Positions 4,570-49,136 of a stretch of 64,000 nt of DNA are shown here, piece after piece. The stretch's first letter is position 1; every line of letters begins with the position of its first letter. The position numbers were made by a program, and so were the translations under genes. The notes beneath the pieces are model-generated. The model saw only the letters and a program-made list of their open reading frames with translations. It had not been told where the DNA came from and ran no database searches. The DNA is from Brevibacillus laterosporus (GTDB lineage Bacteria; Bacillota; Bacilli; Brevibacillales; Brevibacillaceae): NCBI GenBank assembly GCA_007833815.1, contig CP033464.1, positions 5,315,501-5,379,500 of the forward strand, given 5' to 3'.

Positions 4570-4671
4570 GAGCAACACTCCGACCATTATAGTAACAAAA
4601 TAGTAACAAAATAAAAACTGGATATTTTATCTTTGTTATGGATACATTATTTTCTTTCAATCATACAACTA

Positions 4672-4809: not shown

Positions 4810-4882
4810 GGTTGTTTTCTGTGTTAAAATAGTAATTGTATTATTTTCATAAAGTTTTATATAATGAGTATAATGCCGTAAA

Positions 4883-4917
4883 GCAACCATAACACTCGTC
4901 AAGTGTTATGGTTGCTA
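4883..4917 (-). terminator. Hairpin terminator of the Asp-box gene
   Basis: AGCAACCATAACACT and its exact reverse complement, loop CGTCA, 20 bp beyond the stop of the gene at 4938. The flanking TATCTATCAATAGCAACCATA is also present after the degraded copy near 49540. Confidence 0.65.
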
Positions 4918-4937
4918 TTGATAGATAGATGGAAATA

Positions 4938-5897: not shown

Positions 5898-6239
5898 TTA
5901 TATTTCCATGATATCCACAATATCCTCTACAGGTATCCACCAATAGTCTTCATCATTCTTTAACTTGATCTGTTTATACGTGGTATTAAATTTTTCTACC
6001 CAACCCCACGCTGTTTCGATTACTCCCCTATCCCCTTTTGTTGCTTTCCACCAGTTGATCGTATGAGCATAGTCAAACTGACGTGAGTCAACTATCCGAT
6101 AACAGAACTCGGATAGTTCATCTTCTTCAATGATCGGCTTTCCAATCAGTTTCTAATCCTCGTGAAGCTGAAATAACATCTGAGCATGTTCAGGTAAAAT
6201 AAATTTAGTTACAAGTGGATCAAGAATTTTAGAAGCCAT
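5898..6239 (-). pseudogene. YolD-like protein, nonsense-mutated copy
   Basis: The reading frame aligns throughout with the intact copies at 25463 and 58310 (ASKILDPLVTKFILPEHA at the start; a KLKNDEDYWWIPVEDIV end), but the Lys codon of HEDKKLI has become TAG. YolD-like proteins are small phage/SPbeta-type proteins linked to UV-repair polymerases; no uvrX neighbour is seen. One of four copies in the window. Confidence 0.7.
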
Positions 6240-6494
6240 TAAAACATCTCTTTGAATGCGAATATGCGTTCCTATTTCATTTCATTATAAGGAGATTATG
6301 CAATGGTTAGAAATGATATTTTCCAAATCTGGATGTTGCGGTAGTAAGTATATGACTTCAAAAATTAATAGTTCCATCTTTAGCTATCTCGTTTATATTA
6401 AAAATATAAATCATAGCAATCAAATTATTTAATTTCTAAATAATTTGACATGTATTTATAATGGAATGTACAAAGATGAACAGGGGTTGTAAAT

Positions 6495-14979: not shown

Positions 14980-15957
14980 TTAAATTTTCTTCATATCAGC
15001 TAAACGAGTTTCAGTACGATATTTTTCATCAATCTTTAATATAGAGGTGCCTTCAAATAGTAACGCTTTAACAGGTTCTCCATTTTCAGGTTTCCAAAAA
15101 GTTTGTGCCCACATATGATAACTATCAGCAATTTCATCAGCAATTTCTTCATCTGCTCTTGCAAATAATTCATATAAAGATACTGTTTTAGTTCGGAGTG
15201 TACCAGGATCACTACCTAATACATAGGAAAACTGAACCGATCCTGTAAAGAAACTACGACTTTTAATTTCATAAATAGCTGGTGAGGTGTACACATTTGA
15301 AATCAATGTCCCTTTTGACTTAGGAGGTAATTTTGCGGATGCGGTTGAACTAATGGTGTTAGTGATAGTTTTTGAATCAGATGTTCCGTTTTGATTAGAA
15401 TTTGTATATTCATATGCTACTTCTGCACCAAGTTCTGACCCTGCAACAAGAAAATCCACTTTTGCTTTATAATTAAATTTAACACCTGCTTTATGACTGT
15501 GAGTGATTGACTTTGTAAAAGTGGAAGTATTTGATACAGCATGTTGGAACGTATGTGATACAGTCAAATCACCCGAGGAATGATCATTATATGCATCATA
15601 TTCTAAAGATTGAACCAATTTCTCAGGTCCAGCCCCAATTAATTTAGCTCGAATGGGGTAATCTGGATCTACATATTTTTCTTCTACATCTACTAATTTC
15701 ATATCATTGATATATACGCCTACGTTAGGGTCTCCAATACCGTTAATGTATCTTGCATAACTCGGAATTACTTTTCTAGTAACTTGTTCAATATTAACAA
15801 CTTGTGTTTGTTGCGTTTGATAATTAGATAATTTTTGTAATTGAGGATTTTCTAGGTTTACGTTTGTTGAAACATTAGTATGAGCACTAGCTACATTTCC
15901 TGAAGAGATTAATAATGGAGCACTTAATACCATTGCTGTTAAAATTTGTTTTTTCAT
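14980..15957 (-). CDS. ETX/MTX2-family beta-pore-forming toxin
   Basis: 325 residues from the ATG at 15957 behind GAGGG; a longer frame to 16008 lacks a ribosome site. Signal peptide about 1-26 (LTAMVLSAPLLISSGNVASA). The body is beta-rich with the Ser/Thr-rich amphipathic stretches of the aerolysin fold: HTFQHAVSNTSTFTKSITHS, then KAKVDFLVAGSELGAEVAYE, then SKTITNTISSTASAKLPPKS. Family members (epsilon toxin, mosquitocidal Mtx2/3, some Cry-type insecticidal proteins) insert a beta-barrel in target cell membranes. Complete; the only virulence-type gene here. It sits between direct repeats of an IS3 end, so it was probably moved by IS activity. Target organism unknown; insects are plausible. 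Confidence 0.87.
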   Translation of the reverse strand: MKKQILTAMVLSAPLLISSGNVASAHTNVSTNVNLENPQLQKLSNYQTQQTQVVNIEQVTRKVIPSYARYINGIGDPNVGVYINDMKLVDVEEKYVDPDYPIRAKLIGAGPEKLVQSLEYDAYNDHSSGDLTVSHTFQHAVSNTSTFTKSITHSHKAGVKFNYKAKVDFLVAGSELGAEVAYEYTNSNQNGTSDSKTITNTISSTASAKLPPKSKGTLISNVYTSPAIYEIKSRSFFTGSVQFSYVLGSDPGTLRTKTVSLYELFARADEEIADEIADSYHMWAQTFWKPENGEPVKALLFEGTSILKIDEKYRTETRLADMKKI

Positions 15958-16086
15958 AAAATCCCTCTTTTTTAGTTTATTTTTATCGATATAATTTAAT
16001 AATAGCATGGTTTTAGTTTCTCTCTTACATAAGAATTGTTCTATTTTGTTTCAATATTGTTAACAAATGTAAATACCAACATTCCC

Positions 16087-34130: not shown

Positions 34131-34274
34131 TCACACCGATGGGATCTTTTTTTCTTCGGTAGAGATTTCTTCTTCAGACCACTTTAGGAACTCTGGTGTC
34201 TTTTTTAAGACATTACCGTTTGAATCAGTTAGGGCAATAATTAATTTTTTTCCGAGTAATCCTTGTTCAGCCAT
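34131..34274 (-). CDS. Small phage tail-region protein
   Basis: 47 residues from the ATG at 34274, overlapping the tail-sheath stop (TAATG). MAEQGLLGKKLIIALTDSNG, then KTPEFLKWSEEEIS. Probably a short tail-assembly protein, perhaps a truncated tube-protein start; unrecognised. Confidence 0.45.
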   Translation of the reverse strand: MAEQGLLGKKLIIALTDSNGNVLKKTPEFLKWSEEEISTEEKKIPSV

Positions 34275-35801
34275 TAAACATCTACCTCCACGTTTGTACC
34301 GCCTTGATAATTCAACAGAATCCAATCGGCTGTATTGTAATGTTTGACTTTCAATTCTTGTATAAATTGGTCGATTGATCGCGCTTTGGAATCAAATCGA
34401 ATGGAGTAGCTTTCGATCTTGCTTGTCTCTAATTTATTGGTTGGTTGCACCAAATTATCGAAAAATGTACGAATGCGCATGTCTGCTGCTTCTCTCATCG
34501 GTTTGGTCATCGCTTTACCTTGCCATGGTGCGGCTACAGCTTCTAGTTGTTTTCCGATCCAGCTATTCAGACGGCGACGATTGACTTTTCGGTTCTCGTT
34601 GTCCGCAATAGGGTTGCCGGATACATCGTATTTAGAGTGTATAGTCGTTAGCCATGCGCCAAGCATAAGATCCATCACCTTTGGCAGATGATTTGAGTTG
34701 AAACGCTGCTATCTGGTTGTTAAAGAGCTCCTGGTAGTCTTCAAATTCCAATTCCTGATCAGTACCAACAATCCAATTGCATTCAACCGCCAAACCAGAA
34801 TCCTCGATCTGTCCCTTTACGTGAGCAATGGCTGAAAGGCAACTACCAGAGATACGTTGACCAGTCGTAGAGTTGTAATAGCCATAGACCATTTGTCCAA
34901 AGTCGCTATCAAATTGATCTCGATATTCAAAGGCATCCGTTATCGTTTGAGCATTCTTTGTCCCCGTGTAAGCAATAAAGTTATGCTTTTCACCAAGAGA
35001 AATTAATGCCTTGTCTACTTCTGAGCTAGAGTAGTTGATATGAGCAACGTCTGTGATGATGTTCCCGATGACCCCTAGCAGTTTTTGGCCTGTTCGGACA
35101 CCTGTACCTGGATCAAATGTACCGATTCGGTCTGCATCTGTTATAGGTGCTCCATTTGAGCCATTTTTCAATTGAGTTTTAGCCATTACTATTGGTCGTG
35201 TTGTATCAAAATCGCTGTCTTCTTTGACGTCTTCATACACAAAATGCTCGCTAGTGGATTTGATTACTTTCTCCACGTAACGAGCATCATCTTGATTTTT
35301 AGATAGGTTGTCGTAGGTTTCGAACCCACCTAAGTCCGACCACAAGATCAGTTTAAAGGTGTCTGCTTTGGTTCCTTCTTGCACCTCGACAGTGAAAATA
35401 TTTGCGTATTCACCTGGTCCAGCTTTTGGGTAGATACGTGCAGTTTCTTTGTCTTGGCGATCTTTAAGATGCAAACTAGCTGTTTGGTGTCCACTACCCA
35501 AGACTCGTACAAAAGCCGCCTTTTTAATACGGACATGGTTCAAGTGGTCTAGCAATTGATTGCCCGCATGTTTTTTGGTAGATGGGCCAAGAATAGGCTC
35601 GGCAATTTCAATTAACCTCTTGGATGGTGTTTCAGAAATCAACATGTATTTATCAATCGGGCCTCGATCAAATTCACCTACAAAACCCAAGATAAAATGT
35701 GATGTACTTACTTCTTCGCTTTGAGGTACAGGCAGTTCGTTTACATATAACCCAGGTGGGTAATCCTGTAGCGAAGTCACTCCGCGTAACATGGTCAACA
35801 A
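34274..35801 (-). pseudogene. Contractile phage tail sheath protein, frameshifted
   Basis: 389 codons from 35801 (TTG; an ATG at 35792 is equally possible) begin RGVTSLQDYPPGLYVNELPV, FILGFVGEFDRGPIDKYMLI and end at AWRMANDYTL. The rest of the sheath (SKYDVSGNPIADNENRKVNR, then WIGKQLEAVAAPWQGKAMTK, to GGTNVEVDV) is in another frame down to 34274. Sheath monomers polymerise around the tail tube and contract on infection. A frameshift near 34630 disables it; together the two parts give a normal length of about 500 residues. Confidence 0.75.
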
Positions 35802-35812
35802 GACCAGCTCCC

Positions 35813-36343
35813 TTACGTTAATTTTGGCTTAAATTTAGATACATCAATAGCGTTGACTTGCTCCTCTACTATCAACTTTTCTGTGCATTGATAAGTGGCA
35901 TCCACTTGGTAGAGATTAGGTTCACCTCGTGGAGGAAGAGGTGGGGAAGTAATAAATATCTGCACAGGGTCGCCCCATTTATCTTCTGGAATGACTATTT
36001 CGTTTTCTGTTTCGATGTAGGCAAGGAACTTAGTTGATAGTTGTTGTGCCTGGCTTGGTCGCTCAGCAAAAAAAGACACCTGAATGAGATATTCAAATCG
36101 TACAGCCTCTGTACCCACTGTAAAGGTTCCGTTGCCGTTCGAAAGAATACCGTGTGGCTCGTGTTCCCTCATGAGAGCTTTCTCAGATGTTCCGCTAACA
36201 CAAGTGATATTGGCGGCAGGAAGTACTCTTTTTTTTGTCTCAATAGGGTTAGGAATATCATCAGTCACGAGAAATCCAGAACCATGTACAGTCTTTATAG
36301 CATTTTCAAGGGCAGTATAAACTGAAACTAGTGGATCTCCCAA
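35813..36343 (-). CDS. Phage neck/tail-completion type protein
   Basis: 176 residues: VSVYTALENAIKTVHGSGFL then a beta-rich body (FEYLIQVSFFAERPSQAQQL) with IETENEIVIPEDKWGDPVQI. It lies between a gp10-like gene and the sheath, where the tail terminator or completion protein is usually encoded. Overlaps the upstream gene by 16 bases. Assignment is mainly positional. Confidence 0.6.
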   Translation of the reverse strand: MGDPLVSVYTALENAIKTVHGSGFLVTDDIPNPIETKKRVLPAANITCVSGTSEKALMREHEPHGILSNGNGTFTVGTEAVRFEYLIQVSFFAERPSQAQQLSTKFLAYIETENEIVIPEDKWGDPVQIFITSPPLPPRGEPNLYQVDATYQCTEKLIVEEQVNAIDVSKFKPKLT

Positions 36344-36705
36344 TGCCCAAGCCTCCTTAGCTGTTTAACCACTTCTTTTTTAGCTATCTCTTTAATCTGG
36401 TCACGATTTTCATGGAGGGCAGGACGTAGAAAGGGACGCGCTGGTATTTTTTTAGGTGCGTACCCAAATTCATGTGCCGCAGCATAGCTTCCTGGATCGC
36501 CCTTCTTGCTATCCGATTTACCAGAAGCAACCCCTACATACACAACACCTTTATTAATTTGCTTTTCATCGACAGTTAAAGCCTGGCGTAATTGACCAGA
36601 ATCAACTAATGGAGAATCGTCATTTCCACCAGCTCCCCAAGAACCGTGCTTCTTCTTGTATCTTTTTCCTGCTCTTGTTAGGGCACCGGCTTTTGTTTTG
36701 GACAT
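36328..36705 (-). CDS. Phage HK97-gp10-like / virion morphogenesis protein, probably 5'-truncated
   Basis: 125 codons; AAAHEFGYAPKKIPARPFLR, PAL is the conserved C-terminal motif of the gp10/gpG head-tail joining family. In-frame sequence upstream of the ATG (YQGESGGYTAWVKLKPGTVR) belongs to the protein, while still further upstream INASKLAQKVKRMVP is in another frame. So the N-terminus is lost to a frameshift. Confidence 0.65.
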   Translation of the reverse strand: MSKTKAGALTRAGKRYKKKHGSWGAGGNDDSPLVDSGQLRQALTVDEKQINKGVVYVGVASGKSDSKKGDPGSYAAAHEFGYAPKKIPARPFLRPALHENRDQIKEIAKKEVVKQLRRLGHWEIH

Positions 36706-36813
36706 GTGTTTTTTACGGACGGTTCCTGGTTTGAGTTTTACCCACGCTGTATACCCGCCCGATTCACCTTGATAGGTACCATTCGTTTTACTTTTTGGGC
36801 CAATTTGGAGGCG

Positions 36814-37098
36814 TTAATCAGGACCACATCCCTGTCGGTCTTCGTATCGTTTTATCGTAACGATTTCGTCTAGAGCTTTCGCCATACAGAAATCCAGTAA
36901 CAATCCATGATCCCGCGTTGGAACGCTTTCTAGAGAGTGATCCGCTAGATATAGAAACGACAGTTCAGCAGGCCCAAGTGGTGATGAGGATAGAAAAAGG
37001 GCACGATCAGAAATATCGTACCCCGTCAATCCTTCTATCCATGTTTGGTAGTCTTCAGGAAGCTCATATTCTGTTACACCGTGTTCAAGCTTTAACAA
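36814..37098 (-). CDS. Phage protein of the head-tail region, unknown
   Basis: 94 residues (MLKLEHGVTEYELPEDYQTW, IEGLTGYDISDRALFLSSSP). No family recognised. Its place at the head of the tail-gene block and its size suggest a connector or a regulator; the C-terminus may be truncated. Confidence 0.5.
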   Translation of the reverse strand: MLKLEHGVTEYELPEDYQTWIEGLTGYDISDRALFLSSSPLGPAELSFLYLADHSLESVPTRDHGLLLDFCMAKALDEIVTIKRYEDRQGCGPD

Positions 37099-37143
37099 TC
37101 CCTTCCGCTTTCTGGATTTATCAAGACTAATTTAAAATAACTT

Positions 37144-37178
37144 ACATGTATTCAACGCTTTAAACGTTGGATACATGT
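37144..37178. repeat. 14-bp inverted repeat
   Basis: ACATGTATTCAACG and CGTTGGATACATGT around CTTTAAA, just upstream of the tail-gene block. One mismatch. Could be an operator or a terminator without T-run. Confidence 0.5.
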
Positions 37179-37213
37179 ATATAAAGTATAAAATGCGTAC
37201 TTTAAAAAGGAAA

Positions 37214-37231
37214 AGGCTCCTCACGGAGCCT
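37214..37231. terminator. Short hairpin terminator
   Basis: AGGCTCC-TCAC-GGAGCCT followed by ATTTTATT on the plus strand and TTTTCC on the minus. Confidence 0.6.
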
Positions 37232-37467
37232 ATTTTATTCCTAAACCTTCAATAACCGCAACGGCGGACTAAGAAGAGTAAATAAAGTCCTAGACTGCCT
37301 CTGTTGTGTCTGCCACTTTTCAACTATCGAACCCGTTAGTTGAACATGCAACATACTTTTTTAGGTCTAGTTCGTATGTTCCGATGTTGTGAAAAAACAA
37401 TTCCTCATTTATATGTTTACAATTAAAAGAATATTATAAAGATTACCTTTCAAGATCTCATAAACCC
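37232..37467. other. Interval without a gene
   Basis: No supported frame or repeat. Confidence 0.4.
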
Positions 37468-37824
37468 TTAAAAAATTTCCTTGCAATCCTCATAATATGG
37501 AACAAGTGACGGTCGGACACTAGGGTCATTTTTTTTGATTGTTTCTGCATAAATGACTTTCTTTTCTTTCCAAGTAACCCGAATAATTTCAAAATTCTCT
37601 TCTTTATATCGGCTCCATATATTATCGGTCGTAGAAAAAGATGTTGGCATATCGTCTTTTAAATTATCATGTTCTTTTTTAAGCAAATGAACACCCACAT
37701 TGTAATTCACAAAAAAATCCTAAAGATATTCTTCAGTCAGGTCCTCTTTTGACAAGCTAAGTAATTTCTCTATCAATTTACCTCGTGGAAAGGCATGGTC
37801 TTCATTAAATATATTACTTTCCAT
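37468..37824 (-). pseudogene. Unknown acidic protein, nonsense-mutated
   Basis: Starting at the ATG at 37824 the frame reads MESNIFNEDHAFPRGKLIEK, LLSLSKEDLTEEYL, TAG, then DFFVNYNVGVHLLKKEHDNL and on to YYEDCKEIF. A single nonsense codon splits a 118-residue protein. The size and acidity resemble immunity proteins, but I cannot name a family. Confidence 0.55.
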
Positions 37825-37834
37825 GCTATCTTTT

Positions 37835-37960
37835 TGAACCTCTCATCACTAAAGAGACGAGATTCCTAAGTACGGAAACCTAACGGTTTCTAATTGATTA
37901 GGCTATCCCCGTAGTCCCTACGGTTACTGCGATTATGCAGATAGTAGTCTTTTGCCCTCG
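37835..37960 (-). ncRNA. Remnant reRNA/omega-RNA region of an IS605-type element
   Basis: The sequence after the TnpB stop (CGTAGGGACTACGGGGATAG, GAAACC-GTTA-GGTTTC, then a TCGTCTCTTTAGTGATGAGA hairpin) has the folded scaffold and right-end hairpin typical of the guide RNA at the 3' end of tnpB elements. Whether it is still transcribed is unknown. Confidence 0.5.
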
Positions 37961-38275
37961 GCAAGAATATTCAAACTTGCGTTTACATCCCTGTCCCATT
38001 CACTATGACAAGAAGGGCATTCCCAATGTCGCAAGTTAAGATTTTTTACCTCTTTGTTTTGGTATCCACAACATGAGCAAAGCTGAGAAGAAGCAAATGT
38101 TTTACCCACCACAACAATAGTACGACCACCATTATACTGAGGTATTTCTGCACCAATGCTAATAGCTCCAGCAATTGTTCGTATTAAAATTTCATCTTCT
38201 TGTAGTGATCTTATTTTAGATCTTTTCCATTCGAGCCGACGGTTTTCCTACTAAAGTGAGTGAAAGTTGTTCCAT
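37933..38275 (-). pseudogene. TnpB (IS200/IS605) internally deleted remnant
   Basis: The C-terminal zinc-ribbon region is clear: [53 protein letters not shown], with the last RuvC Asp in DRDVN. Upstream are a start ([19 protein letters not shown]) and then a break. Most of the RuvC core is deleted. TnpB is the RNA-guided nuclease ancestor of Cas12; this copy cannot work. Confidence 0.7.
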
Positions 38276-38423
38276 AATAAAACCACCTCTTACTTCAATT
38301 ACGTTTGGATTTACTGTCGTGTTGCTGATTCACCCATAATCTCAATATACATCAAGGGCGAGTAGTAAGCCCTTCTTATTCCAGAATATTCACATTTTTT
38401 TATACCCTTTATACGCGGATAAA

Positions 38424-38457
38424 AAAAGGTTGCCGAGTGATGTCTCGACAACCTTTT
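38424..38457 (-). terminator. Terminator of the bacteriocin operon
   Basis: AAAAGGTTGTCGAG pairs with its near complement; TTTTTTTATCC follows on the minus strand, 19 bp after the SagB-like stop. Confidence 0.75.
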
Positions 38458-38475
38458 GCTTCTTCTCATTCACCC

Positions 38476-40056
38476 CTAGCCATGCAAACTCCCCTCCAAT
38501 CGGGACCTCGGACGATAGGGACCAACCGGAATCTGGATCAAGCTGGTTTTTCCATGCGAATCCATCCGATTGAGATTATCACAGGACTCCACGTCATAGC
38601 CAAGCAGTGGGTGCCCGCCCATGCCGAGAGCAGTAGCCGCCAAAAGTAAACGTTGCACGAGCATGCCCGCCTCCATCTGCTGGATGCGATACCCTCTGTA
38701 CCCCAGTGCTGCTTTGAGGTGATCTTTATCCCCTGCCACATGAAAGCAGAGCGGTACCTGAAACAGATTTACATTGTCCAGATTCATGCCTTGTTGCAGG
38801 TAAAGCCGATGATCGCCAAGACGTATCTGCCGCAACGCATGAGCTTCACTGTCATAGCGGTAGGCACCATCCGGAATGTCTTCTACGTTGTACAAACAGC
38901 AATACAGGAAGACACGGGGTTGGCGGTTCTCCTGGTCCTCATCCAAATCGTTTCGATATTGGAAGGAAGCAGTCGCCTCTTGTAATAAAGTAGCCAATTG
39001 CTGTTGGCTTACCTTGCCTAAAACAAAACCCATTTCCGGCGAAACCCGTTTTCTGCAGGCCGAGCCCAGATCATAAAAGAACCGCCCTACTTGAGGGAGT
39101 GCCACTGTGTTACCCTCATAAGTAATGTTCTTTTCTCCTTCAAACCGCCGAAACGATTGTAGAGATTCCAGTTGGGACGCTTCGGTCATTTGGATCAGCA
39201 TCGGGTATGGCAGAACCCGTTGCGACCGTACGTAGTGATCATGCTCTACCGTTAGCAACTCCCGACACAATTCAGCGGCCGTGACGCTTCCATTTGCGCC
39301 ATTCCCTTTCCCAAACCACGTACTCCCCGGCTCCACCGACAGCGGGATGACCGCATAGACGCTCTCCTCCTGTTCTGACAGCCCCAGCAGATGGTTAAGC
39401 GCACGATCGAGAAACTGGAAATATACCCCCGATTCATAGCCAAACCGTTTCGAAACTTCGAGTAATTGCCCTATCAGCACGCCAGCATCAAGGCCTTGCA
39501 GGCGATAGGCGAAGTTATTGTATTTAAAGAAATTTTTCCAAAACATGGTCGTCACAAAAACGGTTGCAAAACAAGTCGATAGATCACAGCGATTGCCGAG
39601 AGCACGAGCCATATAATCATCGAAGTTTCCTTTACGCAATAAAACCAATCGCTGGTGAGCGACATCATAATGGTAGATACCGGTATGGGCACCTTCCAGC
39701 TTCAGATATACGTATATTTCGTTTGGATACCTCGCACCGCCAGACGGAACAAACCGTCGGTACGATTGTATCGGTCCAAAAGCTTGTTCCATCGTATTCA
39801 GATCAAAGACAGACTCGCTGAATTGAGTCAGACCGTATACGTACCAGAGAAAATGACTCATTTCTCGCAGATCTGGTTTCGTGATCGCTTGTCGCTCCTC
39901 CAGCATAAGCGGTATTTCCGCAGACAACGGGATGACAGGCAAGCCACGGTAGAGCTTAAATGGCAAGGGTGCGTCTTCCCAGTCCACCTCGAAGTCAAGT
40001 GGTATTGCCTTTTCTGTGTCGAAATGAAGAGTGTGCAGAAAAGTATCCAGCCTCAT
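38476..40056 (-). CDS. SagB-type azoline dehydrogenase (two nitroreductase-like domains)
   Basis: 526 residues. It resembles two nitroreductase/SagB modules: about 60-290 (YRRFVPSGGARYPNEIYVYL; LDAGVLIGQLLEVSKRFGYE) and 300-526 (YRNDLDEDQENRQPRVFLYC; EAGMLVQRLLLAATALGMGG). SagB enzymes use FMN to oxidise thiazolines and oxazolines, made by the cyclodehydratase, to aromatic thiazoles and oxazoles. Last gene of the operon, 22 bp after the YcaO gene. Acts in the cytoplasm on the leader-bound precursor. Confidence 0.88.
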   Translation of the reverse strand: MRLDTFLHTLHFDTEKAIPLDFEVDWEDAPLPFKLYRGLPVIPLSAEIPLMLEERQAITKPDLREMSHFLWYVYGLTQFSESVFDLNTMEQAFGPIQSYRRFVPSGGARYPNEIYVYLKLEGAHTGIYHYDVAHQRLVLLRKGNFDDYMARALGNRCDLSTCFATVFVTTMFWKNFFKYNNFAYRLQGLDAGVLIGQLLEVSKRFGYESGVYFQFLDRALNHLLGLSEQEESVYAVIPLSVEPGSTWFGKGNGANGSVTAAELCRELLTVEHDHYVRSQRVLPYPMLIQMTEASQLESLQSFRRFEGEKNITYEGNTVALPQVGRFFYDLGSACRKRVSPEMGFVLGKVSQQQLATLLQEATASFQYRNDLDEDQENRQPRVFLYCCLYNVEDIPDGAYRYDSEAHALRQIRLGDHRLYLQQGMNLDNVNLFQVPLCFHVAGDKDHLKAALGYRGYRIQQMEAGMLVQRLLLAATALGMGGHPLLGYDVESCDNLNRMDSHGKTSLIQIPVGPYRPRSRLEGSLHG

Positions 40057-40078
40057 CTTTTTCCCTCCCGATCACGAT

Positions 40079-42022
40079 TTATGGAAACGGATGCGGATGT
40101 GGATTGAGCTGTTCATACGTTAACGGCTGCTTCGTATACCCAAGCTCCATGGGTACTTGTAGTACCCGATCCAGTCCTTTAACGCGGGTTAGGTGATGTC
40201 CGAAAGTCATCGGCAACATCTCCGGAATCAGTACTTTTACGCAATGCAGTCCGTTCCGCAAGATTTCAGGTGTCGTCTGATCCACCACGATCACATCGAG
40301 ATTCAATCGGCGGAACGTCTGGAGAAGGGACTTCAAATCATCGGTTAAATCGCCATACTTTGGCCTCGGTATGAATTCCTCTTCAAACGTTCGCAATGGA
40401 CGATGATCATTCAGCAAAAATTGCAGGCGCTCTTCCGCTTCCGTCAAAGCGTACAGCATAGAATGATGTTCCATCTTTTTCACCAGAAACGGATCGTGGA
40501 ACATACGCACATACTCTTCACGGTTAGCCTCAAACTTCTCGTTCAATGTCAGTAGCATAGCGGCCAATTCGTGGATTGAGCTTTTCAACGCCCGCACAGG
40601 GTCCGGATGAGCGCCGCCCGCACAGATCAGATTGACTCCCTTTTCTTTTCTGTTTTTCGCCAGTGTCCAAACGCTGGGAATCCCATTCTCCATCGTCGCG
40701 TTAAACACATAGACATCATAACCGGCCACCGCCTGCAAACGGTAGAGCATCAAGTGCAATTCCTGATCGTGAATCGAAAAGGGGTCAATACGTGGAAGAG
40801 GAAGCTCCCCATACCAGGTCATCAGGAATGAATCACGCTCCACCACTTCCAAAATGGCGTAGAAAATCGCCTCTTCCAGACTGCCGCCCAACGCGCATCC
40901 GTTGGAAGTTTCAAACACAAAGCAATCCTTATCACCCATCCCGTAATAGGCAAGCATCTCCGGAACCAAAATCGAGCGCTCTTGCAAGAACGAGTAGCCC
41001 CATACCCAATACATTGGTCGGTCAGGATCAAACCGTACGAACGGAAAATCAGGTCTCTCATGCTGTTCCTCGGTGTGTAGCCCTACCTTGACGGGATCGA
41101 GCGCTTGATCCGCAAGATTGTGGAAACTGTCGCGGATCACGGTCCGCTTGCCGCGAGGTGCAATTCCGCAGTACCGCTCCAAGCCCTCCAATATGGCTGT
41201 CATCTCGCTATCCTCATACGAATGCGTCCGCCCTGCTGTCCCCTCGTCCCCAGTGAACAACGGCAGACTAACACTTACATCGGCAAACGGCGACACCAGA
41301 TCACGCAGTTTTTTATTCAAAAAGCCTGTTCGGTAATCCAGATACTCTTTACCCAAAACCTTCTTGAGATCGTCCATGGGGCGAGAGCGGTAACTGTCGG
41401 CGCTGATCTTCGGATTAGGTTTTAGTGATATGCGAGCTGCAATCGCCGAATCTTCGGGCATCTGACCGCAAACCTCACATGACGGGTCAGGCAGAATGAA
41501 GTGGCGAGAACTCCTTAACATTTTCAGGTTGATCAAAAATAACCGACCTTCCAAGTGGGCTTGCTCGCCTGTTAGCACCCGCTGTACCTCTGCCACGAGC
41601 ACGTGAGTCATCTGCAAAAGCCCCGTGTGCGATGCCCATGCATCACGTGAGATATTCGCTTGCTCGCCCAGCCGTTGTTGCAGCTCCCATATCTCTTGAC
41701 GCTCACGTCCCGCCATCAGATATCGCAGATCAGCACACTGCGAACACCCCGGCGTACCAGGACGCACCAGCGGCCCAACCACGCCTTCACCAAACGAAAC
41801 GAAACCGCGCAGCCAAGGGATGCCAGATGTTTGCAACACCGCTTCCGCCTCGCGATGTACGAAAGGATTCCAAGCATCGTGCAACACCAGAGCTATTTCA
41901 GCTGTTTTCGGTATTTGGGCCTTCAAATTGGTCTGACGAACGACCTCGTATGGAGCAGACAATTCTTTGCACACGAGATCCGCCAAGAGCCCTTCTCCGA
42001 CAACCAAAACGACTGAACTCAC
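40079..42022 (-). CDS. YcaO-domain cyclodehydratase with N-terminal ThiF/docking region (TOMM)
   Basis: 647 residues. The N-terminal 220 are E1/ThiF-like (VVLVVGEGLLADLVCKELSA; zinc-type Cys in CSQCADLRYL and CEVCGQ). The remainder is the YcaO domain (ILEGLERYCGIAPRGKR; GCALGGSLEEAIFYAILEVV, ERDSF) ending in the proline motif LNPHPHPFP that completes the active site. It activates peptide amides with ATP and cyclises Cys/Ser/Thr to azolines. It overlaps the previous gene by four bases (ATGA). This fused organisation is that of heterocycloanthracin-type clusters. All key segments appear intact. Confidence 0.9.
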   Translation of the reverse strand: MSSVVLVVGEGLLADLVCKELSAPYEVVRQTNLKAQIPKTAEIALVLHDAWNPFVHREAEAVLQTSGIPWLRGFVSFGEGVVGPLVRPGTPGCSQCADLRYLMAGRERQEIWELQQRLGEQANISRDAWASHTGLLQMTHVLVAEVQRVLTGEQAHLEGRLFLINLKMLRSSRHFILPDPSCEVCGQMPEDSAIAARISLKPNPKISADSYRSRPMDDLKKVLGKEYLDYRTGFLNKKLRDLVSPFADVSVSLPLFTGDEGTAGRTHSYEDSEMTAILEGLERYCGIAPRGKRTVIRDSFHNLADQALDPVKVGLHTEEQHERPDFPFVRFDPDRPMYWVWGYSFLQERSILVPEMLAYYGMGDKDCFVFETSNGCALGGSLEEAIFYAILEVVERDSFLMTWYGELPLPRIDPFSIHDQELHLMLYRLQAVAGYDVYVFNATMENGIPSVWTLAKNRKEKGVNLICAGGAHPDPVRALKSSIHELAAMLLTLNEKFEANREEYVRMFHDPFLVKKMEHHSMLYALTEAEERLQFLLNDHRPLRTFEEEFIPRPKYGDLTDDLKSLLQTFRRLNLDVIVVDQTTPEILRNGLHCVKVLIPEMLPMTFGHHLTRVKGLDRVLQVPMELGYTKQPLTYEQLNPHPHPFP

Positions 42023-43956
42023 CGGGACTCCTCCTCTCGTAGCAAAACCCCATATACTCCTGCCAGTTCCTTTTTCAAAAAGGACTCCTGCGCCAAATCC
42101 AAGAGGAAGAGCCGCTTCTGATTCCGTTTCAAAACCTGTAGGGCGGACTGCAAGATCTCTGTTTGCGCTGTTTCGTCTAGTCCGGGAATCGCAAGACTGT
42201 TTTGCTCCTGTTCTTCCAAAAGAACGGATGCACGGGACAACGCAAGCGGCATGCGAAATTCCGCCTGATTTTGTGCCACTAGCAAGGCATACTGCAACGA
42301 ATTACGCAACGCCATGGTCACATTTAAACCTACACTGCCATACCAGCGTTCACCTGTACCGACCCACACTGCAGGGAAACCGAACACTTCTGCTCCCACT
42401 CCGATCCTCGGTGTTCCTTGCATGGTGATCAATGCTTGCAAATAAAACCGGCTATACTCATCTTCTACCGTACTCAATTGCACCTGATTAACAGGAGGTT
42501 TTTGATCCATATGCTGCGTGCTCAGTTCTTGGAACAAACACTTTTGCAACCCGCGGCTGACACCCTCCGCTGCGGTCTCCCCCGCTCCGACTCCGACAAA
42601 ATCATGTGGCTCTAGCATTTGTCCCGTCAAGAACGCGGGAACCATACGCGATACATACGCTTCTATTCCGGTCAGCCCCGCATCCTTCCGAGCCTCCTCA
42701 TGCGTCATCCCTGTGCACACCATCTCCGGCAACAGCTCGGCCGGTCCCTCCGACAGCGGGTCAGTTGCCTGAATTCGGCACTGGGCCAATGGAAGCTGCT
42801 TTAAGCCCCCCTCCTCCCAGATGTGGAAAATCCCTGATTCTGCTGATGTCAATGTGCTGAAATAAGGGATCAGACCGTTCGAATCACTTGAGCCCTTTTT
42901 TTGTTCGAGGTGTTCATCAAGATCTTCTATCCATTTGACTTTCGTTTTTCCTGTCACCAACGGGTGAGACATGAACGAATGCCAGTTTCCTTCCAACGTC
43001 TCCAGATCAAGAAGGTAGACCTTATTCTTCGGTTCCGATTCGTTCACCGCCGTAATGGTCTTGAACAATTCAAACACGATTACATTTGCCAGCATCGCTC
43101 CTGCCGTGGAGGAAAACGTGTGCAGCTTTTCGTCTTTGCAGAGCACGGATTGGTGTATACGGCGCCACGCCGACTCCCAACATTCCTCAGAGTCTGGATG
43201 CACAAGCGGTCCCGCTACCCCCACCTGCTGCAGACATATCGCTGGCAGCAGCACCTTGCCCTCTTCCCTGCAAACGGCTTGAAGAACCCGCAGTTCCTCT
43301 ACATTGCCCTCCTGAGAAACGTACAAAATCGCATCAAACGGCTGCACAGCCTCGCGCCAAGTATTTACTACCTCCGCCTGCAGCGCAAGCTCCACTATGG
43401 CTACCTCGGGGTCCGTTTTGCGGGCATGAGACGCCAGCTCCACTATCCGTTGTCGATCCGTCGGCAGCGAACGATTGACCAGCATATGGAACCTGGACAA
43501 GCCGGAATCAAGCAACGCCACAACCAATGAGACAAAGATCGGACCGGAGCCGATCGCCAGCACTTTAGCCTGACGATAAGACATGAAACGATAAGCACCA
43601 GAATCAGCCAGATTACTTAAAAATTCAATTTGTGAAGCATACTTTTTGCAAATCTTGTCCGTAAGCTGATGCGGACGATCTTGGCTCACATCCTGGGCAA
43701 AACCATTTTGGAATAAATTTTCTGCGATTTCAAACACACGATCCTGATATTCTTTCGGCAATCTGTCCGTCAGCTCGCCCAACGTGTTCTCCCCGTTAAA
43801 CACCGGCAACAGTTTTTCAATCCACTGATCAATCCCATTTCCTTCCATACGAAATGAGCCTACATTATTCCGAAAATACACATTTCCCTTTTGATCAGGA
43901 AGAAAAAAAGTGTCCCTTTTCACTTTTAGACGCATAGAAGAATCTAATTTTGTCAT
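42019..43956 (-). CDS. ThiF-like thiazole-bacteriocin maturation protein (leader recognition)
   Basis: 645 residues, ATG behind TAGGAGGAG. N-terminus RDTFFLPDQKGNVYFRNNVG looks like the small winged-helix recognition element that binds leader peptides. A nucleotide-binding-like region, VLAIGSGPIFVSLVVALLDS, follows, then a long C-terminal part (GMTHEEARKDAGLTGIEAYV; MVCTG). Equivalent proteins of Bacillus heterocycloanthracin loci are annotated as putative thiazole-containing bacteriocin maturation proteins and partner the YcaO enzyme. First enzyme gene after the precursor, separated from it by an attenuator-like hairpin. Confidence 0.85.
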   Translation of the reverse strand: MTKLDSSMRLKVKRDTFFLPDQKGNVYFRNNVGSFRMEGNGIDQWIEKLLPVFNGENTLGELTDRLPKEYQDRVFEIAENLFQNGFAQDVSQDRPHQLTDKICKKYASQIEFLSNLADSGAYRFMSYRQAKVLAIGSGPIFVSLVVALLDSGLSRFHMLVNRSLPTDRQRIVELASHARKTDPEVAIVELALQAEVVNTWREAVQPFDAILYVSQEGNVEELRVLQAVCREEGKVLLPAICLQQVGVAGPLVHPDSEECWESAWRRIHQSVLCKDEKLHTFSSTAGAMLANVIVFELFKTITAVNESEPKNKVYLLDLETLEGNWHSFMSHPLVTGKTKVKWIEDLDEHLEQKKGSSDSNGLIPYFSTLTSAESGIFHIWEEGGLKQLPLAQCRIQATDPLSEGPAELLPEMVCTGMTHEEARKDAGLTGIEAYVSRMVPAFLTGQMLEPHDFVGVGAGETAAEGVSRGLQKCLFQELSTQHMDQKPPVNQVQLSTVEDEYSRFYLQALITMQGTPRIGVGAEVFGFPAVWVGTGERWYGSVGLNVTMALRNSLQYALLVAQNQAEFRMPLALSRASVLLEEQEQNSLAIPGLDETAQTEILQSALQVLKRNQKRLFLLDLAQESFLKKELAGVYGVLLREEESR

Positions 43957-44055
43957 GTCACTCCTCCTACTGTTCGCAGTTCCCCAAATAACGCGCCAGC
44001 ACTTTCATCGTAATCTTATGTATGGCTATTTGTCCCTCATACCTGATCTTTTTGT

Positions 44056-44100
44056 GAACAAAGCCCCTGGTAGCCAAACTACTTGACTGTGCAGGGGCTC
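44056..44100 (-). terminator. Attenuator-type hairpin between precursor and enzyme genes
   Basis: AGCCCCTG and CAGGGGCT enclose 22 bases; on the minus strand TTTGTTCACAAAAAG follows. It lies 36 bp after the precursor stop and 100 bp before the first enzyme start. Partial read-through would give far more precursor than enzyme, as in many RiPP operons. Confidence 0.6.
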
Positions 44101-44135
44101 TCTTTTTCTCCGGCAGCAATATTTCCTTTAAGACC

Positions 44136-44387
44136 TTAGAAGCAACGGGAACAACGACCACATCGGGAGCAATTGAAGAAAATACAAAAGCAGCTACAGG
44201 AACAACTGCATGAACAACTGCATGAACAGCTACACGAGCAATTGCACGAACAGCGGTGATGACACCCTCCGCATCTTCTCTGAACTAGCATTGCATCTTG
44301 CTGACTTTCATTTTCCCAAGGCGATACATCTCCACCGCTGAATTTGTCAATCTTCAACTTTTTAAGTTCGTTTTGGAAATCATCCAT
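44136..44387 (-). CDS. Heterocycloanthracin-type azol(in)e bacteriocin precursor with poly(Ser-Cys) core
   Basis: 83 residues from the ATG at 44387, eight bases after GGAGG; an ATG at 44405 has no site. The leader (1-38, DDFQNELKKLKIDKFSGGDV, SPWENESQQ) matches the leader type of Bacillus heterocycloanthracin precursors. The core has 18 Cys: RCGGCHH, then C46-S-C-N-C followed by eight Ser-Cys pairs to C66, then F-C68-IFFNC and three CSRC/CGRC-like units ending RCF. Ser and Cys in strict alternation would be converted to a long conjugated oxazole/thiazole chain by the three enzymes encoded downstream. No homologous core of this length is known to me. Confidence 0.87.
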   Translation of the reverse strand: MDDFQNELKKLKIDKFSGGDVSPWENESQQDAMLVQRRCGGCHHRCSCNCSCSCSCSCSCSCSCSCFCIFFNCSRCGRCSRCF

Positions 44388-44405
44388 GATTACTACCTCC
44401 AGCAT

Positions 44406-45457
44406 TAAAATATGATACTTAGGAAAACCTTTGTCGAACGGGTGAAGCTATCCAATACACGAATACCCATCAGCGAATATACACTATATATATGAAAGAT
44501 CATCCTTGATTGGATCCTCCTGCAAAAGCCTATTTTTTGGGGCCCTTAAAAAACGCAAGAAAAGAGCCACCTCCCGAGTGGAAAGTGGCCCTTCATTTAA
44601 ACTGCTCACCGATGTGGAAATCCCCATACCCGGCTTAACGTGTGTGGGGATTTGTTTTTACGCCTGTATGTGTCGTTCGATTTTATCTACAAATTTGTCC
44701 ATCAGTTGCTCGAGCAAATGAAGCCGCCCTCGCAAGGTGCCAAATCCTCCTGGGCTTCCGCCATTCGCTCTTGTAACCTGCCGATCATTGTGTACTTCGT
44801 TAAATTCTATTCCTATTACATAAATTTTAAAATTTTACCTAATAATTCCATAATATAAATTAAAACCGAGCAATGAATTTCTGATTGATTACTATACTGT
44901 TCCACACCAGACGCTGAAGCTCGTTGGCTCATTTGATAGATGATAAACACTTACTGGTGAATTTGAGATATTCGGTCTTAAAGGAAGCTGAACTGTTAGC
45001 GAGAGCATTTAGCGATCAAGTCAAATTAAATCTTTCTTTTAGAAGAGAAACACAAGAGGAAATGTCTTCACCGAAGTAAATTAATCTTTATGGGAACCTT
45101 GTTTTTAGTGTACAAATGGTTAAGTGACAAATTTCTGATACTAGCAAAAAGTCTAGTTATTACTAGAGATATGAATGGCGATATACCTAACATTCAGTAT
45201 TCTCACATAAATAAACTTATCATCCCATAAAAAGAACTTATGGGAATCTAATAAAATGTGACATCAATTGCAATAAAATATATATAATGGTAAAATTTTG
45301 AATTGAATAATTAATTGAGATATTATTGATTAATCTCAGAGTGAATAAGCTGGTATAGATCATTTTCTAAGGAGAGATGCCCCATTCTAAAAATCAGCTA
45401 AACGGTGGGTCAACGAACCATAGAGTAAGAAAACTGTCTTAATTGTATACTCATCAT
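44406..45457. other. Long interval upstream of the bacteriocin operon
   Basis: Contains the presumed promoter region of the precursor (no convincing SigA hexamers; TTCGAC-17-TCATAT is the best pair), the terminator at 44618, and a plus-strand frame without start at about 44913-45079 (LLVNLRYSVLKEAELLARAF, ending EMSSPK) that looks like the end of a lost gene. No transporter or immunity gene is present. Confidence 0.45.
44618..44660 (+). terminator. Terminator
   Basis: AAATCCCCA...TGGGGATTT followed by GTTTTTA on the plus strand. The gene it once served is not visible. Confidence 0.65.
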
Positions 45458-45679
45458 TCAAAATACGTTTTGCAAAATAATACTGTAATTCTTTACGGAT
45501 GTAAGGCTGTTGAATCTTATTGAATAAAATAACCTTGTTAGTGTAAGGCCACTCTCTCCTTTATTCAAGTAACATTCTCTGACATCCCAAATTTCGCGCT
45601 CCCAAAACCCATTTAATATTTGGGCAAATTCATCAATATGTTTTTGAGTAGGATTATTTCTGCCTTTAGATATAGACAA
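45458..45679 (-). pseudogene. Second recombinase, N-terminal remnant
   Basis: 73 codons beginning ISKGRNNPTQKHIDEFAQIL 18 bp after the tyrosine recombinase. The opening suits the N-terminal helical domain of a partner recombinase, as in elements with tandem recombinases, but the rest (TLTRLFYSIRFNSLTSVKNY) looks out of frame. Confidence 0.35.
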
Positions 45680-45697
45680 CTATTCCACACCCTCTAT

Positions 45698-46433
45698 CTA
45701 TTTTTTCATCTTGTTGGAATGTGCCTTTTCCCATTCTTTCCTAATATCATCATCAGAAGGGTGTAGGTAAATACCAATAGTAGTTTGAACATTTTCATGG
45801 CCTAACAGATCTTGCAACGTCTTTATATCTACTCCGTTTCTGAGAAGTTCTGTAGCGTAAGTATGACGGAACATGTGAGTTGTAAAATCAATTCCAGTTT
45901 TGCTCTTCATGCGTTTAACCCAGGATCTTGTTGATGAATAGTCTAAGTGCTGGCCTCTATTAGGCCCAGTTAACTTGAAAAATACATAGTTCGTGTCAAT
46001 ATCATCAGCATGAAAATCAATTAAAAAGTCCTGAAATAAGTTCATCGTTTTTTCTGTAACAAATACTTTGCGTCCTTCGCCAGCTCGCGTTTTAGATTTT
46101 CTAACGGTTATAGCATTTTTGCCAATATCAAAATCCTCAATCCATAATGAAAGGGCCTCTGATATCCGTAACCCACCTTCGTAAAGAACTAAAAGAAGTA
46201 AGCTATCCCTTGTATTAGTACAAGTATCATGGATAGACTTGATTTGAAATTCCGATAAAGTTTTGATTCGGCGTTTAGGCTCGTTTAACTTTAAGATATT
46301 TTTATCGACTGGTTTTCCTTTTGTTATATGATGTAAGAATGATTTGAATTTACGATGGTTCCCTGAAAATTGTTTTCGTCGATTCGATTGTATGTCTTTA
46401 GCGCTGGTATTTACAAATTGATACAGAGTGTCT
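45698..46433 (-). pseudogene. Tyrosine recombinase, N-terminally truncated
   Basis: The frame is open from 46433 with no start codon: LYQFVNTSAKDIQSNRRKQF, then catalytic Arg in YEGGLRISEALSLW, HMFRHTYATELLRNG, GHENVQTTIGIYLHPSD with the Tyr. The catalytic domain is complete. An internal ATG at 46045 gives 115 codons only. It interrupts a phage connector gene at 46442, so it marks the end of another inserted element. Confidence 0.8.
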
Positions 46434-46441
46434 ATTCAATG

Positions 46442-46684
46442 TTAACTATAAATTCGGTAAATCTTTAGTTTAGATAAAGAGTTTTTTAGCAAAAAAAATA
46501 GGCAGATTACAAACGTAGAATACGTTGTAATCTCCTTCAAATTATAGTCTATATAACTAGGACGATAACGGGAATAGTCGTAAACCGCTTCTGTTAATCT
46601 ATCGATCAGTTTATCATCTGAATGTAGAAAAGGCTCTTCAATATCTCCAAGCTCTTTACGTAGCTTCTTCACCAGTTCCATCAT
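46442..46684 (-). pseudogene. Phage head-tail connector-like protein, truncated
   Basis: From the ATG at 46684 behind GGAGG: MMELVKKLRKELGDIEEPFL, DDKLIDRLTEAVYDYSRYRP, then after about 50 residues unrelated sequence at the recombinase junction. The start resembles phage connector or DUF6682-type proteins. Confidence 0.5.
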
Positions 46685-47015
46685 TCGTATTCGCCTCCAA
46701 GAACTGCTTATACAATTCCATTCGTTTTTCTTTATTGCGAACAGCATCTGCATCCTCCACAGATACGATTAGATTTCGTACTAGTACTTCTTTCTGTTTG
46801 TGAGCATCCAGTTTATCGAATTGATCCAATGTTAAAAACTCCTGGGATACTACTATCTCAGGAGTAGGTTCATTAACAGGATCTATCTCATCGTTCTTAT
46901 CTTCCAGTTCAGTGGGAACCGGTTGGGTGTAATGCTCCTGGTAAGACTGGCCAGGGTGAATCATCTGGCCCGTTAACGGATGAAGAAATGAGCAACCTGT
47001 ATTTAACTTCAGCAT
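46656..47015 (-). CDS. Phage structural-region protein, unknown
   Basis: 119 residues: LNTGCSFLHPLTGQMIHPGQ then a Glu/Pro-rich stretch and FLTLDQFDKLDAHKQKEVLV. Encoded directly after the capsid gene; small proteins here are often capsid-stabilising or connector-associated. Unrecognised family. Confidence 0.55.
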   Translation of the reverse strand: MLKLNTGCSFLHPLTGQMIHPGQSYQEHYTQPVPTELEDKNDEIDPVNEPTPEIVVSQEFLTLDQFDKLDAHKQKEVLVRNLIVSVEDADAVRNKEKRMELYKQFLEANTNDGTGEEAT

Positions 47016-47030
47016 AAAGAATACCCCTTT

Positions 47031-48917
47031 CTATTGACCTGACTTGCTATTAAACAACTTGATTGTGCGATATGGCGGTTTTAACCAATCTGCTCCAAAT
47101 TCGAGCATGAATGTTTCAACACCCTCAGTTGGGATACCATCAAATTCTCCAATGCCTCCAAAATCATCTTGGGAATAAATATCCTCTGTTTGGAACTCCA
47201 CAGGAATCTTGTATGTTGTACCTGAAAAACTCTCGGCCATGATTAACTGAGCAAACTTTAAGTTCTGGAACAACTGACGCATAAACGCTAAACTGACAAC
47301 TGGAATTTGCGCAAGGTCACCAGTTGATGTTGCTGCGCTATCTTGAATTGCTCCGTCAGTAATGGATTGAGCAGCATCTGTGAGAGAGTGCATAAAATTC
47401 TGATACTCATGATGGTTTTCTCGCTCCATTCTTCCAAGAACACGATCAAGAATAGCGAGATTTCCTTTGCGTAGATTCTCGTCAATACGGAAATTCCGGT
47501 CTTTCGCGCGAAATTGATCGTCAAGGGCTGCCATTAAATTATCTACTACTGGAACCCACGGTTGAGCTGAGTTACCCACTTGGAGTTCCTTGTTGATAAT
47601 AGCCGCTCGTCCTGAAGGGATGCCTAAATTATGCTTTTGATTATCAATTTGGATGGCATCCACAAAGGCTTGTTCTGTCTCATTAAAAGAGGCTACTTCG
47701 GAAGCGTCCATAATGGCTGCGCCTTTTTGAAGTAGCCCATCTTTTACCTGTTTATCGTAAGGAAGTGCGTTGATTGCATCTGTTCGTGTTTGCTGTGCTT
47801 CTTCTTTCTTACGATTTGCCTCTTCCTGTTGTTCACGTTGTTGCTTATCTCTCTTTAAAATCTCCAGTTCATCCGTCAGAGCTTGTTCTTTTTCCTTTGC
47901 CACAATTGCTGAATCACATAGTGACATGTCAGCGTGGCCACTGTTTGTTTTTTTCCATGCGCGTAGTTCATCAAGTGTCATACTAAAGAAATCCATCTTC
48001 ATCTTTTCTTCCTCCTTGGTTAGTGAATCTATGATTACAGCTATTGCAGTGTCTGTTAACTCAATCGGTGTAGTAAATGCCTCAGGTTCTGCCGGATTTA
48101 ATACGACATCCCATGTGTAAAGCGTAAGATCACGAGCCGCATTGAACTTGCGACCGTTTGAAGCAGCTGGTGCCATGTCTCCGGTCATTCGATTGCTAAA
48201 CCCAATCGGTAATCCTGCGTCAAGCATGGCCTGCACCTGTTTCCCCATGTCTGTAGCTAATGGCTTATACTCAGCCCAAACAACTGCCTGATTAGGCACA
48301 CTGGAATCAAAAAGCACCCTACCATCTGCACCTTTATAACAGCGCGGATGAGGATGCTCGCCTGCATACGGGAAACCCGCCTTTTTCACTGCATCTAGAG
48401 CCACTTGATAAACTGTGCGGGGGTAGAGCCGGTTATTTCCATTGATTGCATCAACTTTAGAAACGGGCTGACGATACCACCCCGTTGATTTTCCTGCTTC
48501 ATCTACGACTGGAACAGCTCTTGAAAAACATAGTTCCCTTTGATCCTCTGCGCTGTCAGTCAAAACAGTAAAAAGTGGTTCAACTGAGTCAGTAAAACCC
48601 ATGCTTGGCTTCTGCCGTTCGCCAGACTCCTCTTTTGCTGCTTCTTCAATGCACCAAGTGCTAAAATCAGCCCTTGCTCTTGCATCAATTGCCTCATAAT
48701 AAATACGACGGTCCACTTCTGTTAGTGGAGTATTGGCCAAACTTTTCTTTATGGCCAGCAGAGCAATGACACTGTTAGCTTCTAAAATCTGTTTCATCAA
48801 TGGGTCATCGGTTAATGCATCCTTTATGGGTTCTTCATCCGCCATGAATCCTGCTTTTGCAAAGTACTGTAGATTCATTTCAAACAGTAATTTGACCTTG
48901 AATCTCTGTGTAAACAC
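47031..48917 (-). CDS. Fused prohead protease / scaffold / major capsid protein, capsid part truncated
   Basis: 628 residues. The N-terminal 260 hold the protease (INGNNRLYPRTVYQVALDAV; AGEHPHPRCYKG; LPIGFSNRMTGDM). A Lys/Glu/Gln-rich coiled coil (about 320-375) acts as scaffold. From about 430 on it is the capsid start (AIINKELQVGNSAQPWVPVV; AFMRQLFQNLKFAQLIMAES). Such protease-capsid fusions occur in some Bacillales phages and self-cleave on assembly. The capsid domain stops early (RTIKLFNSKSGQ), so head formation must fail. Confidence 0.75.
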   Translation of the reverse strand: MFTQRFKVKLLFEMNLQYFAKAGFMADEEPIKDALTDDPLMKQILEANSVIALLAIKKSLANTPLTEVDRRIYYEAIDARARADFSTWCIEEAAKEESGERQKPSMGFTDSVEPLFTVLTDSAEDQRELCFSRAVPVVDEAGKSTGWYRQPVSKVDAINGNNRLYPRTVYQVALDAVKKAGFPYAGEHPHPRCYKGADGRVLFDSSVPNQAVVWAEYKPLATDMGKQVQAMLDAGLPIGFSNRMTGDMAPAASNGRKFNAARDLTLYTWDVVLNPAEPEAFTTPIELTDTAIAVIIDSLTKEEEKMKMDFFSMTLDELRAWKKTNSGHADMSLCDSAIVAKEKEQALTDELEILKRDKQQREQQEEANRKKEEAQQTRTDAINALPYDKQVKDGLLQKGAAIMDASEVASFNETEQAFVDAIQIDNQKHNLGIPSGRAAIINKELQVGNSAQPWVPVVDNLMAALDDQFRAKDRNFRIDENLRKGNLAILDRVLGRMERENHHEYQNFMHSLTDAAQSITDGAIQDSAATSTGDLAQIPVVSLAFMRQLFQNLKFAQLIMAESFSGTTYKIPVEFQTEDIYSQDDFGGIGEFDGIPTEGVETFMLEFGADWLKPPYRTIKLFNSKSGQ

Positions 48918-49136
48918 GTTTTCTCACCCTTTCGTTACGTTATTGATTTGATTTCAAACCAATCATACAGAATCACCACCTTTCAACTGCTATTTATCCA
49001 CTGGCAACCAACTAACCCTGTTCTTATCCACCATAAGAATTCATAAAATCCATAAAATCCATTATTAGGAAGTGTTGTTGCGGACTAGAACAGTTAACCT
49101 AACTAGTCAGAATGGGTGACTTTACAGTATTCAATG

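Follow-up and report, generated by a model that had tools for sequence, protein, structure and literature searches.

Sequence analysis of a heterocycloanthracin-type cassette with a Ser-Cys repeat precursor on an apparently mobile segment in Brevibacillus laterosporus

The precursor gene and its maturation genes

The stretch of DNA analysed here, 64,000 nucleotides of the Brevibacillus laterosporus contig CP033464.1 (referred to as the window), carries four genes on its minus strand in the order precursor, F, C-D, B (Table 1). Minus-strand translation of 44136-44387 gave a single open frame of 83 codons and a stop; on the plus strand the same frame is broken by stops. The preliminary description of this locus had the 83-residue frame right and left its strand unnamed. 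The precursor sequence is MDDFQNELKKLKIDKFSGGDVSPWENESQQDAMLVQRRCGGCHHRCSCNC(SC)8FCIFFNCSRCGRCSRCF (83 residues). Counted from the first Cys, the core is 45 residues long, of which 18 are Cys and 11 are Ser; Thr is absent. It reads ..RCSCNC(SC)8FC.., with eight as the longest (SC)n, exactly the 18 Cys and the C-S-C-N-C followed by eight Ser-Cys pairs that had been described. All 83 residues matched the NCBIfam model TIGR03601 (heterocycloanthracin/sonorensin) with 61.4 bits (cut-off 35; E 9.9e-17), which bears out the earlier assignment to RiPP precursors with a heterocycloanthracin-like leader. It was the one TIGR03601 match in the whole window genome. The full-length match, the GGAGG placed 8 nt before the ATG and dN/dS values of 0.22 and 0.23 together indicate that the precursor is a real gene and not a chance frame.

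Table 1. Features of the precursor locus and of the segment that carries it
Feature	Position in window	Strand	Evidence
Precursor peptide gene, 83 aa	44136..44387	minus	TIGR03601 match; translation; dN/dS 0.22-0.23
Division into leader (residues 1 to about 38) and Cys-rich core (39-83)	within 44136..44387	minus	
(Ser-Cys)8 array inside core	44190..44237	minus	translation
Ribosome-binding-site-like GGAGG	44396..44400	minus	8 nt before precursor ATG (by eye)
Hairpin between F and precursor genes, candidate attenuator	44057..44104	minus	fold -28 kcal/mol, z -1.56; 14 of 200 shuffles as good
Ocin-ThiF-like F protein (TIGR03693), expected to bind the leader	42019..43956	minus	772.1 bits, cut-off 561.9
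Fused C-D cyclodehydratase	40079..42022	minus	TIGR03882 153 bits and TIGR03604 422.2 bits; Pfam YcaO 298.8 bits
SagB-type azoline dehydrogenase (B)	38476..40056	minus	TIGR03605 205.3 bits, cut-off 78.4
Inserted segment in Emery-like prophage gene gp8, with cassette and TnpB and integrase remnants	37114..46556		Emery alignment; G029 comparison
Left end of inserted segment, 15-bp-stem hairpin	37114..37335		98% identical to G029 left end
Right end of inserted segment, hairpin	46361..46556		95% identical to G029 right end
Short TnpB-like frame, C-terminal domain only	37933-38112		inside segment
Short tyrosine-integrase-like frame	45698-46045		inside segment

Promoter-like sites were no more numerous than in shuffled sequences (9 against 7.0, sd 2.8), and the same was true of terminator-like sites (9 against 6.8, sd 2.6). 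The hairpin between the F and precursor genes may conceivably act as an attenuator.

The precursor, the F protein, the SagD domain and SagB each scored above their own curated cut-off. Within the 647-residue C-D protein, TIGR03882 covered residues 68-234 and TIGR03604 residues 264-647. The locus thus has the F protein, the fused C-D protein and the B (SagB) dehydrogenase by which heterocycloanthracin clusters are recognised, and passages of Cox et al. (2015; PMC4603692) name C-D, F and B as the only genes common to all such clusters. None of the four cassette genes encodes a leader peptidase, an exporter or an immunity protein. Relatives of F, D and B were present in all 11 of the other family contexts (19-20 kb regions around precursor matches). 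In each of five genomes tested, at least 95% of the length of these frames was open, with dN/dS of 0.10-0.32; among the more distant pairs, several had a saturated dS (above 1). The sequences identify the four genes as family members in the order given, with enzymes under purifying selection. It is extremely unlikely that the neighbouring enzymes leave the precursor unmodified and that it serves as a metal- or redox-active Cys-rich protein, a reading favoured only by its very high Cys content and opposed by both the TIGR03601 match and the recurrence of F, C-D and B in the other contexts. The locus very probably represents an intact four-gene heterocycloanthracin-type azol(in)e-peptide (LAP/TOMM) cassette, for which we propose a Cys-to-thiazole maturation.

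Ser-Cys cores among relatives

To place the core among its relatives, 40 genomes of the window's bacterial family (Brevibacillus and kin) were searched with the TIGR03601 profile. A match at E <= 0.001 was found in 28 of them, and in 27 it was over the cut-off, with 29 matches in total. Runs of (SC)3 or longer were present in 25 of the 29 precursors, of which 13 had at least eight pairs and 10 more than eight, the maximum being 16. The four without such a run were L023, L027, L028 and L029. A class-wide draw of 399 genomes gave 71 with a TIGR03601 match, 46 of them outside the family. From outside the family 56 loci were fetched and one precursor was taken from each, except that L059 gave none by the Cys-count rule; this set leaves out nine lower-scoring matches (G348, G085, G245, G334, G102, G380, G212, G092 and G091) and the second precursors in L048 and L056. 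No (SC)3 was seen in the resulting 55 precursors from other Bacilli, where the longest run was two. Between neighbouring Cys, a spacing of two was seen in 318 of 519 steps within the family, compared with 13 of 693 in the other Bacilli sampled. Since runs of three or more pairs occur in 25 of 29 precursors within the family and in 0 of 55 outside it, the alternating core is, within this sample, a signature of the bacterial family and not of the window gene alone. Genomes G208 and G218 each gave six matches to TIGR03601; two of the G218 matches contain an internal stop, and the cores read from these genomes differ.

The preliminary description knew of no relative with alternating Cys. Such a core is usual in the family, and its uniqueness is ruled out both by the 25 precursors above and by print: passages of Cox et al. 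(2015; PMC4603692) already report Cys-Ser repeats in heterocycloanthracin precursors, with 14 precursors found near their D proteins, and count these repeats within the heterocycloanthracin family. A literature search for the array letters combined with 'thiazole' gave no match.

Heterocycloanthracin/sonorensin (TIGR03601; Haft 2009, PMC2674419) shares with the window the leader, the precursor size, a Cys-periodic core and the F, C-D and B partners. As first described it has a Cys-Xaa-Xaa periodicity, whereas the window core is mostly Cys-Xaa; known heterocycloanthracins carry Cys at every third residue (CXX) and the window family at every second (CXC). The precursors of Cox et al. resemble that of the window in having Cys-Ser repeats and in lying within 10 kb of a D protein, and according to passages of the same source (PMC4603692) most B. 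cereus heterocycloanthracin precursors, unlike the window's, do not adjoin their enzymes. Closer to home, extracts of a 2023 paper (PMC9867215) describe TOMM clusters of the heterocycloanthracin/sonorensin family in Brevibacillus isolates, the same bacterial group, with the precursor upstream of three maturation genes as in the window; the precursors of some strains are enriched in Val-Ala or Ser. Streptolysin-like cytolysins have a long contiguous heterocyclisable run in common with the window (PMC4603692, in part) and differ in gene set: the window has a fused C-D protein and an F protein, and neither an ABC transporter nor a CaaX-like protease is encoded among its four cassette genes.

Searches beyond the family sample yielded at least four related loci among 587 candidate stretches in named genomes, and a plasmid search returned eight records, all of them distant or partial relatives of F. 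On a Paenibacillus larvae plasmid (L120, 11581-12897) a frame resembles the precursor family by eye, with wider Cys spacing and without any Ser-Cys run; an F-like frame at this locus is truncated and closely followed by an IS256 transposase. In P. cellulosilyticus (L121, 5670-5921, minus strand) a frame of 83 residues with four Ser-Cys pairs lies near frames resembling F and YcaO; it is just upstream of the F-like frame and on the opposite strand to it. This frame was not counted as a precursor, as by eye it has no leader and a membrane-like end, in the manner of a small membrane-type protein.

Probable growth of the array and likely fate of its Ser residues

Selection on the cassette was compared in two congeners. 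Against G029, dN/dS was 0.32 for F, 0.12 for D, 0.21 for B and 0.22 for the precursor; against G027 the values were 0.32, 0.17, 0.11 and 0.23 respectively, the precursor values being drawn from 82-83 codons with an uncertain alignment of the array. The first 36 codons differ from G029 by one synonymous and two non-synonymous codon changes, and from G027 by no synonymous and four non-synonymous changes. These changes are too few for the leader alone to prove purifying selection.

At the DNA level the array is a tandem repeat of period 12, with 4.4 copies at 44200-44252. Ser codons in the arrays (window 44190-44237 and homologues, L001-L026) alternate between TCN and AGY: among 202 neighbouring pairs 161 differ in class and 41 agree, where shuffling gives an expectation of 103.2 differing pairs (sd 6.4), and none of 2000 within-array shuffles reached 161. 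As these shuffles ignore relatedness, the precursors were thinned by leader identity. Below 85% identity (19 kept, leaving out L008, which the leader rule missed) 105 pairs differ and 15 agree, where 62.9 (sd 5.0) would be expected to differ; below 70% (14 kept) the numbers are 81 and 10 against 47.3 (sd 4.6); and below 60%, with eight precursors left, some of them lacking an array, they are 27 and 9 against 17.8 (sd 2.7). At no threshold did any of 2000 shuffles reach the observed value. The simplest reading is that arrays have lengthened by 12 bp at a time and that TCN and AGY have stayed fixed in place, because these two codon classes do not interchange by single synonymous changes. An alternative reading is shared descent of the alternation from one ancestral array. 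The array of L026 is almost all TCN, so steps of 6 bp also occur. The array probably gains and loses copies of its tandem repeat, with selection keeping Ser and Cys in place.

Cys is the constant part of the arrays. The residue between the two Cys in the 318 CXC steps of the family is Ser in 258, Phe in 20, Thr in 13, Arg in 9, Gly in 8, Asn in 6 and Val in 4; Leu, Pro and Ala were never seen there. In 27 arrays, the interval bounded by the first and the last Ser holds 254 Ser among 283 residues, and in 17 of these arrays it includes non-cyclisable residues (Phe 13, Arg 7, Val 3, Asn 2). Ser itself therefore seems to be selected, given its share of these positions and the absence of Leu, Pro and Ala from the CXC steps, and conservation this strong would also fit a modification of Ser. 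The maturation enzymes were compared across cores of different type. Those of G003 serve a core without Ser-Cys pairs and share 66% (D), 57% (F) and 66% (B) identity with the window's; the corresponding values are 60, 45 and 51% for G007, and 62, 44 and 51% for G024.

By analogy with described systems, the F protein would bind the leader and bring the precursor to the fused C-D cyclodehydratase, which would close most of the 18 Cys onto the carbonyl of the preceding residue to give thiazolines. The SagB enzyme would oxidise these to thiazoles, and a protease and an exporter encoded elsewhere would complete maturation. Passages of PMC4603692 describe binding of the leader by the F protein and a truncated cyclodehydratase that depends on F and installs thiazolines. 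Parts of PMC10634744 give a further description of the complex, and parts of PMC12325987 one of HcaF-leader binding. Within the array, the outcome would be thiazoles separated by single, mostly unmodified Ser.

Plantazolicin has continuous azoles, formed from alternating Cys and Thr. If all Ser and Cys of the array were likewise cyclised and oxidised, the result would be a continuous chain of at least 16 alternating oxazoles and thiazoles, functionally nearer to the streptolysin-like cytolysins or plantazolicin. The prevalence of Ser in the CXC steps is consistent with such a product, as is the encoding of Ser by two classes of codon that single synonymous changes do not connect, by which Ser itself seems selected; moreover, contiguous heterocyclisable runs of at least 10 are given as a cytolysin hallmark in part of PMC4603692. 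Against it, non-cyclisable residues break 17 of the 27 arrays, including the window's own (by Asn), the family cyclodehydratase described in passages of PMC4603692 makes thiazolines, and a core without Ser-Cys pairs is served by the G003 enzymes, which are closer to the window's than those of G007 and G024 are. A continuous oxazole-thiazole ribbon made from both Ser and Cys is thus unlikely. The broader proposal of a rigid conjugated ribbon of at least 16 contiguous rings throughout the family, up to (SC)16, passed between species on a hairpin-ended mobile unit, is distinctly unlikely.

The interruptions in 17 of 27 arrays and the Ser-Cys-free core of G003 argue that Ser in the array is mostly spared. 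The most likely product is a linear azol(in)e peptide in which Ser is largely unmodified and the majority of Cys are thiazol(in)es. It would likely be a bacteriocin, a role read from the family name only. Related enzymes serve cores with Cys at every second residue and at wider spacing, with longest Ser-Cys runs of 3 to 16 pairs, and this range of spacings and run lengths provides a natural series for how the cyclodehydratase handles adjacent cyclisable residues.

The inserted segment and its prophage setting

The cassette lies between two parts of a prophage, 34134-37113 and 46557-49019, with about 69-82% DNA identity to Brevibacillus phage Emery. Window 36878-37113 aligned to Emery L098 5343-5578 (71% identity), and window 46557-47011 to L098 5577-6034 (76%). 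As these flanks align to abutting stretches of Emery, 37114-46556 represents an insertion within gp8. Tail-sheath matches fall in two frames (34274-34678 and 34632-35801). The stretches corresponding to L098 ~4651-5139 and 6035-7122 are missing from the prophage, which is therefore decayed.

This setting raises the question of whether the cassette itself is decaying or silent, on a mobile segment in a dead prophage. The phage gene split by the insertion, the TnpB and integrase remnants inside it, the two further missing stretches of the Emery map and the lack of a precursor match in 3 of 6 genomes of the window's genus would all fit such a state. It is nevertheless very unlikely, given the four intact frames and a dN/dS against G029 of 0.22 for the precursor and 0.12-0.32 for the enzymes. 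The precursor cassette is genuine and probably functional.

The cassette of G029 is 97.1% identical to the window's in DNA over 6.3 kb. It is carried on a unit of about 7.1 kb (L087 4869-11908) with the same two outer ends, at another chromosomal place; this copy has no DNA matching the TnpB-like and integrase-like stretches. At the G029 insertion place, the unit is replaced by 21 bp in G031 and by about 50 bp in G030; in the window's genome the neighbouring gene is present there and the unit is not. Empty counterparts are thus available for both sites, phage Emery for that of the window and G031 and G030 for that of G029.

Between the window genome (G000) and G029, dS of the cassette enzymes is 0.039-0.045, 6-12 times below that of rpoB (0.272) and gyrA (0.471). 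Against G027 it is 0.079-0.315, compared with 0.941 for rpoB and 1.485 for gyrA. Because enzyme dS is so far below that of these two genes, the cassette enzymes have most likely moved between species. Precursor dS is 0.247 to G029, near rpoB, and 0.442 to G027. We put these high values down to the fast-changing array, as the first 36 codons hold a single synonymous change relative to G029. The cassette looks like a mobile discrete unit, and as such would spread between species of the genus.

The full pair of segment ends was found in 2 of the 40 family genomes. G027 has a diverged left end alone, away from its cassette, and 12 further family genomes match only within the inner left end (bases 135-222; window 37248-37335). 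Matches to 45-46 bases of the right end occur in G031 and once more in G029, at another place. The hairpins at the ends were folded as RNA without a shuffle control. From the hairpin ends and the TnpB remnant, the mobile unit may be of IS200/IS605 type. No transposase frame was identified inside 37114-46556, and at 7-9 kb the unit would be unusually large for that type.

Ordinary phage-borne cargo was considered and rejected, since the phage collection contained no record with a YcaO relative, a precursor relative was encoded in none of 600 pattern-matching viral-contig stretches, and the fetched stretch of phage Emery is without the inserted segment. In a literature search for 'heterocycloanthracin' with 'transposon', neither word was present in any matching title or abstract. 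Fresher leads than the peptide core are the codon alternation and the apparent mobility of the cassette. Movement of a complete azole-peptide cassette between species as a discrete unit with conserved hairpin ends is a better lead than the peptide, and could explain the patchiness of such bacteriocins between strains. Elsewhere in the window, a frame at 14980-16008 resembles, by eye, a secreted aerolysin-like (ETX/MTX2) protein.
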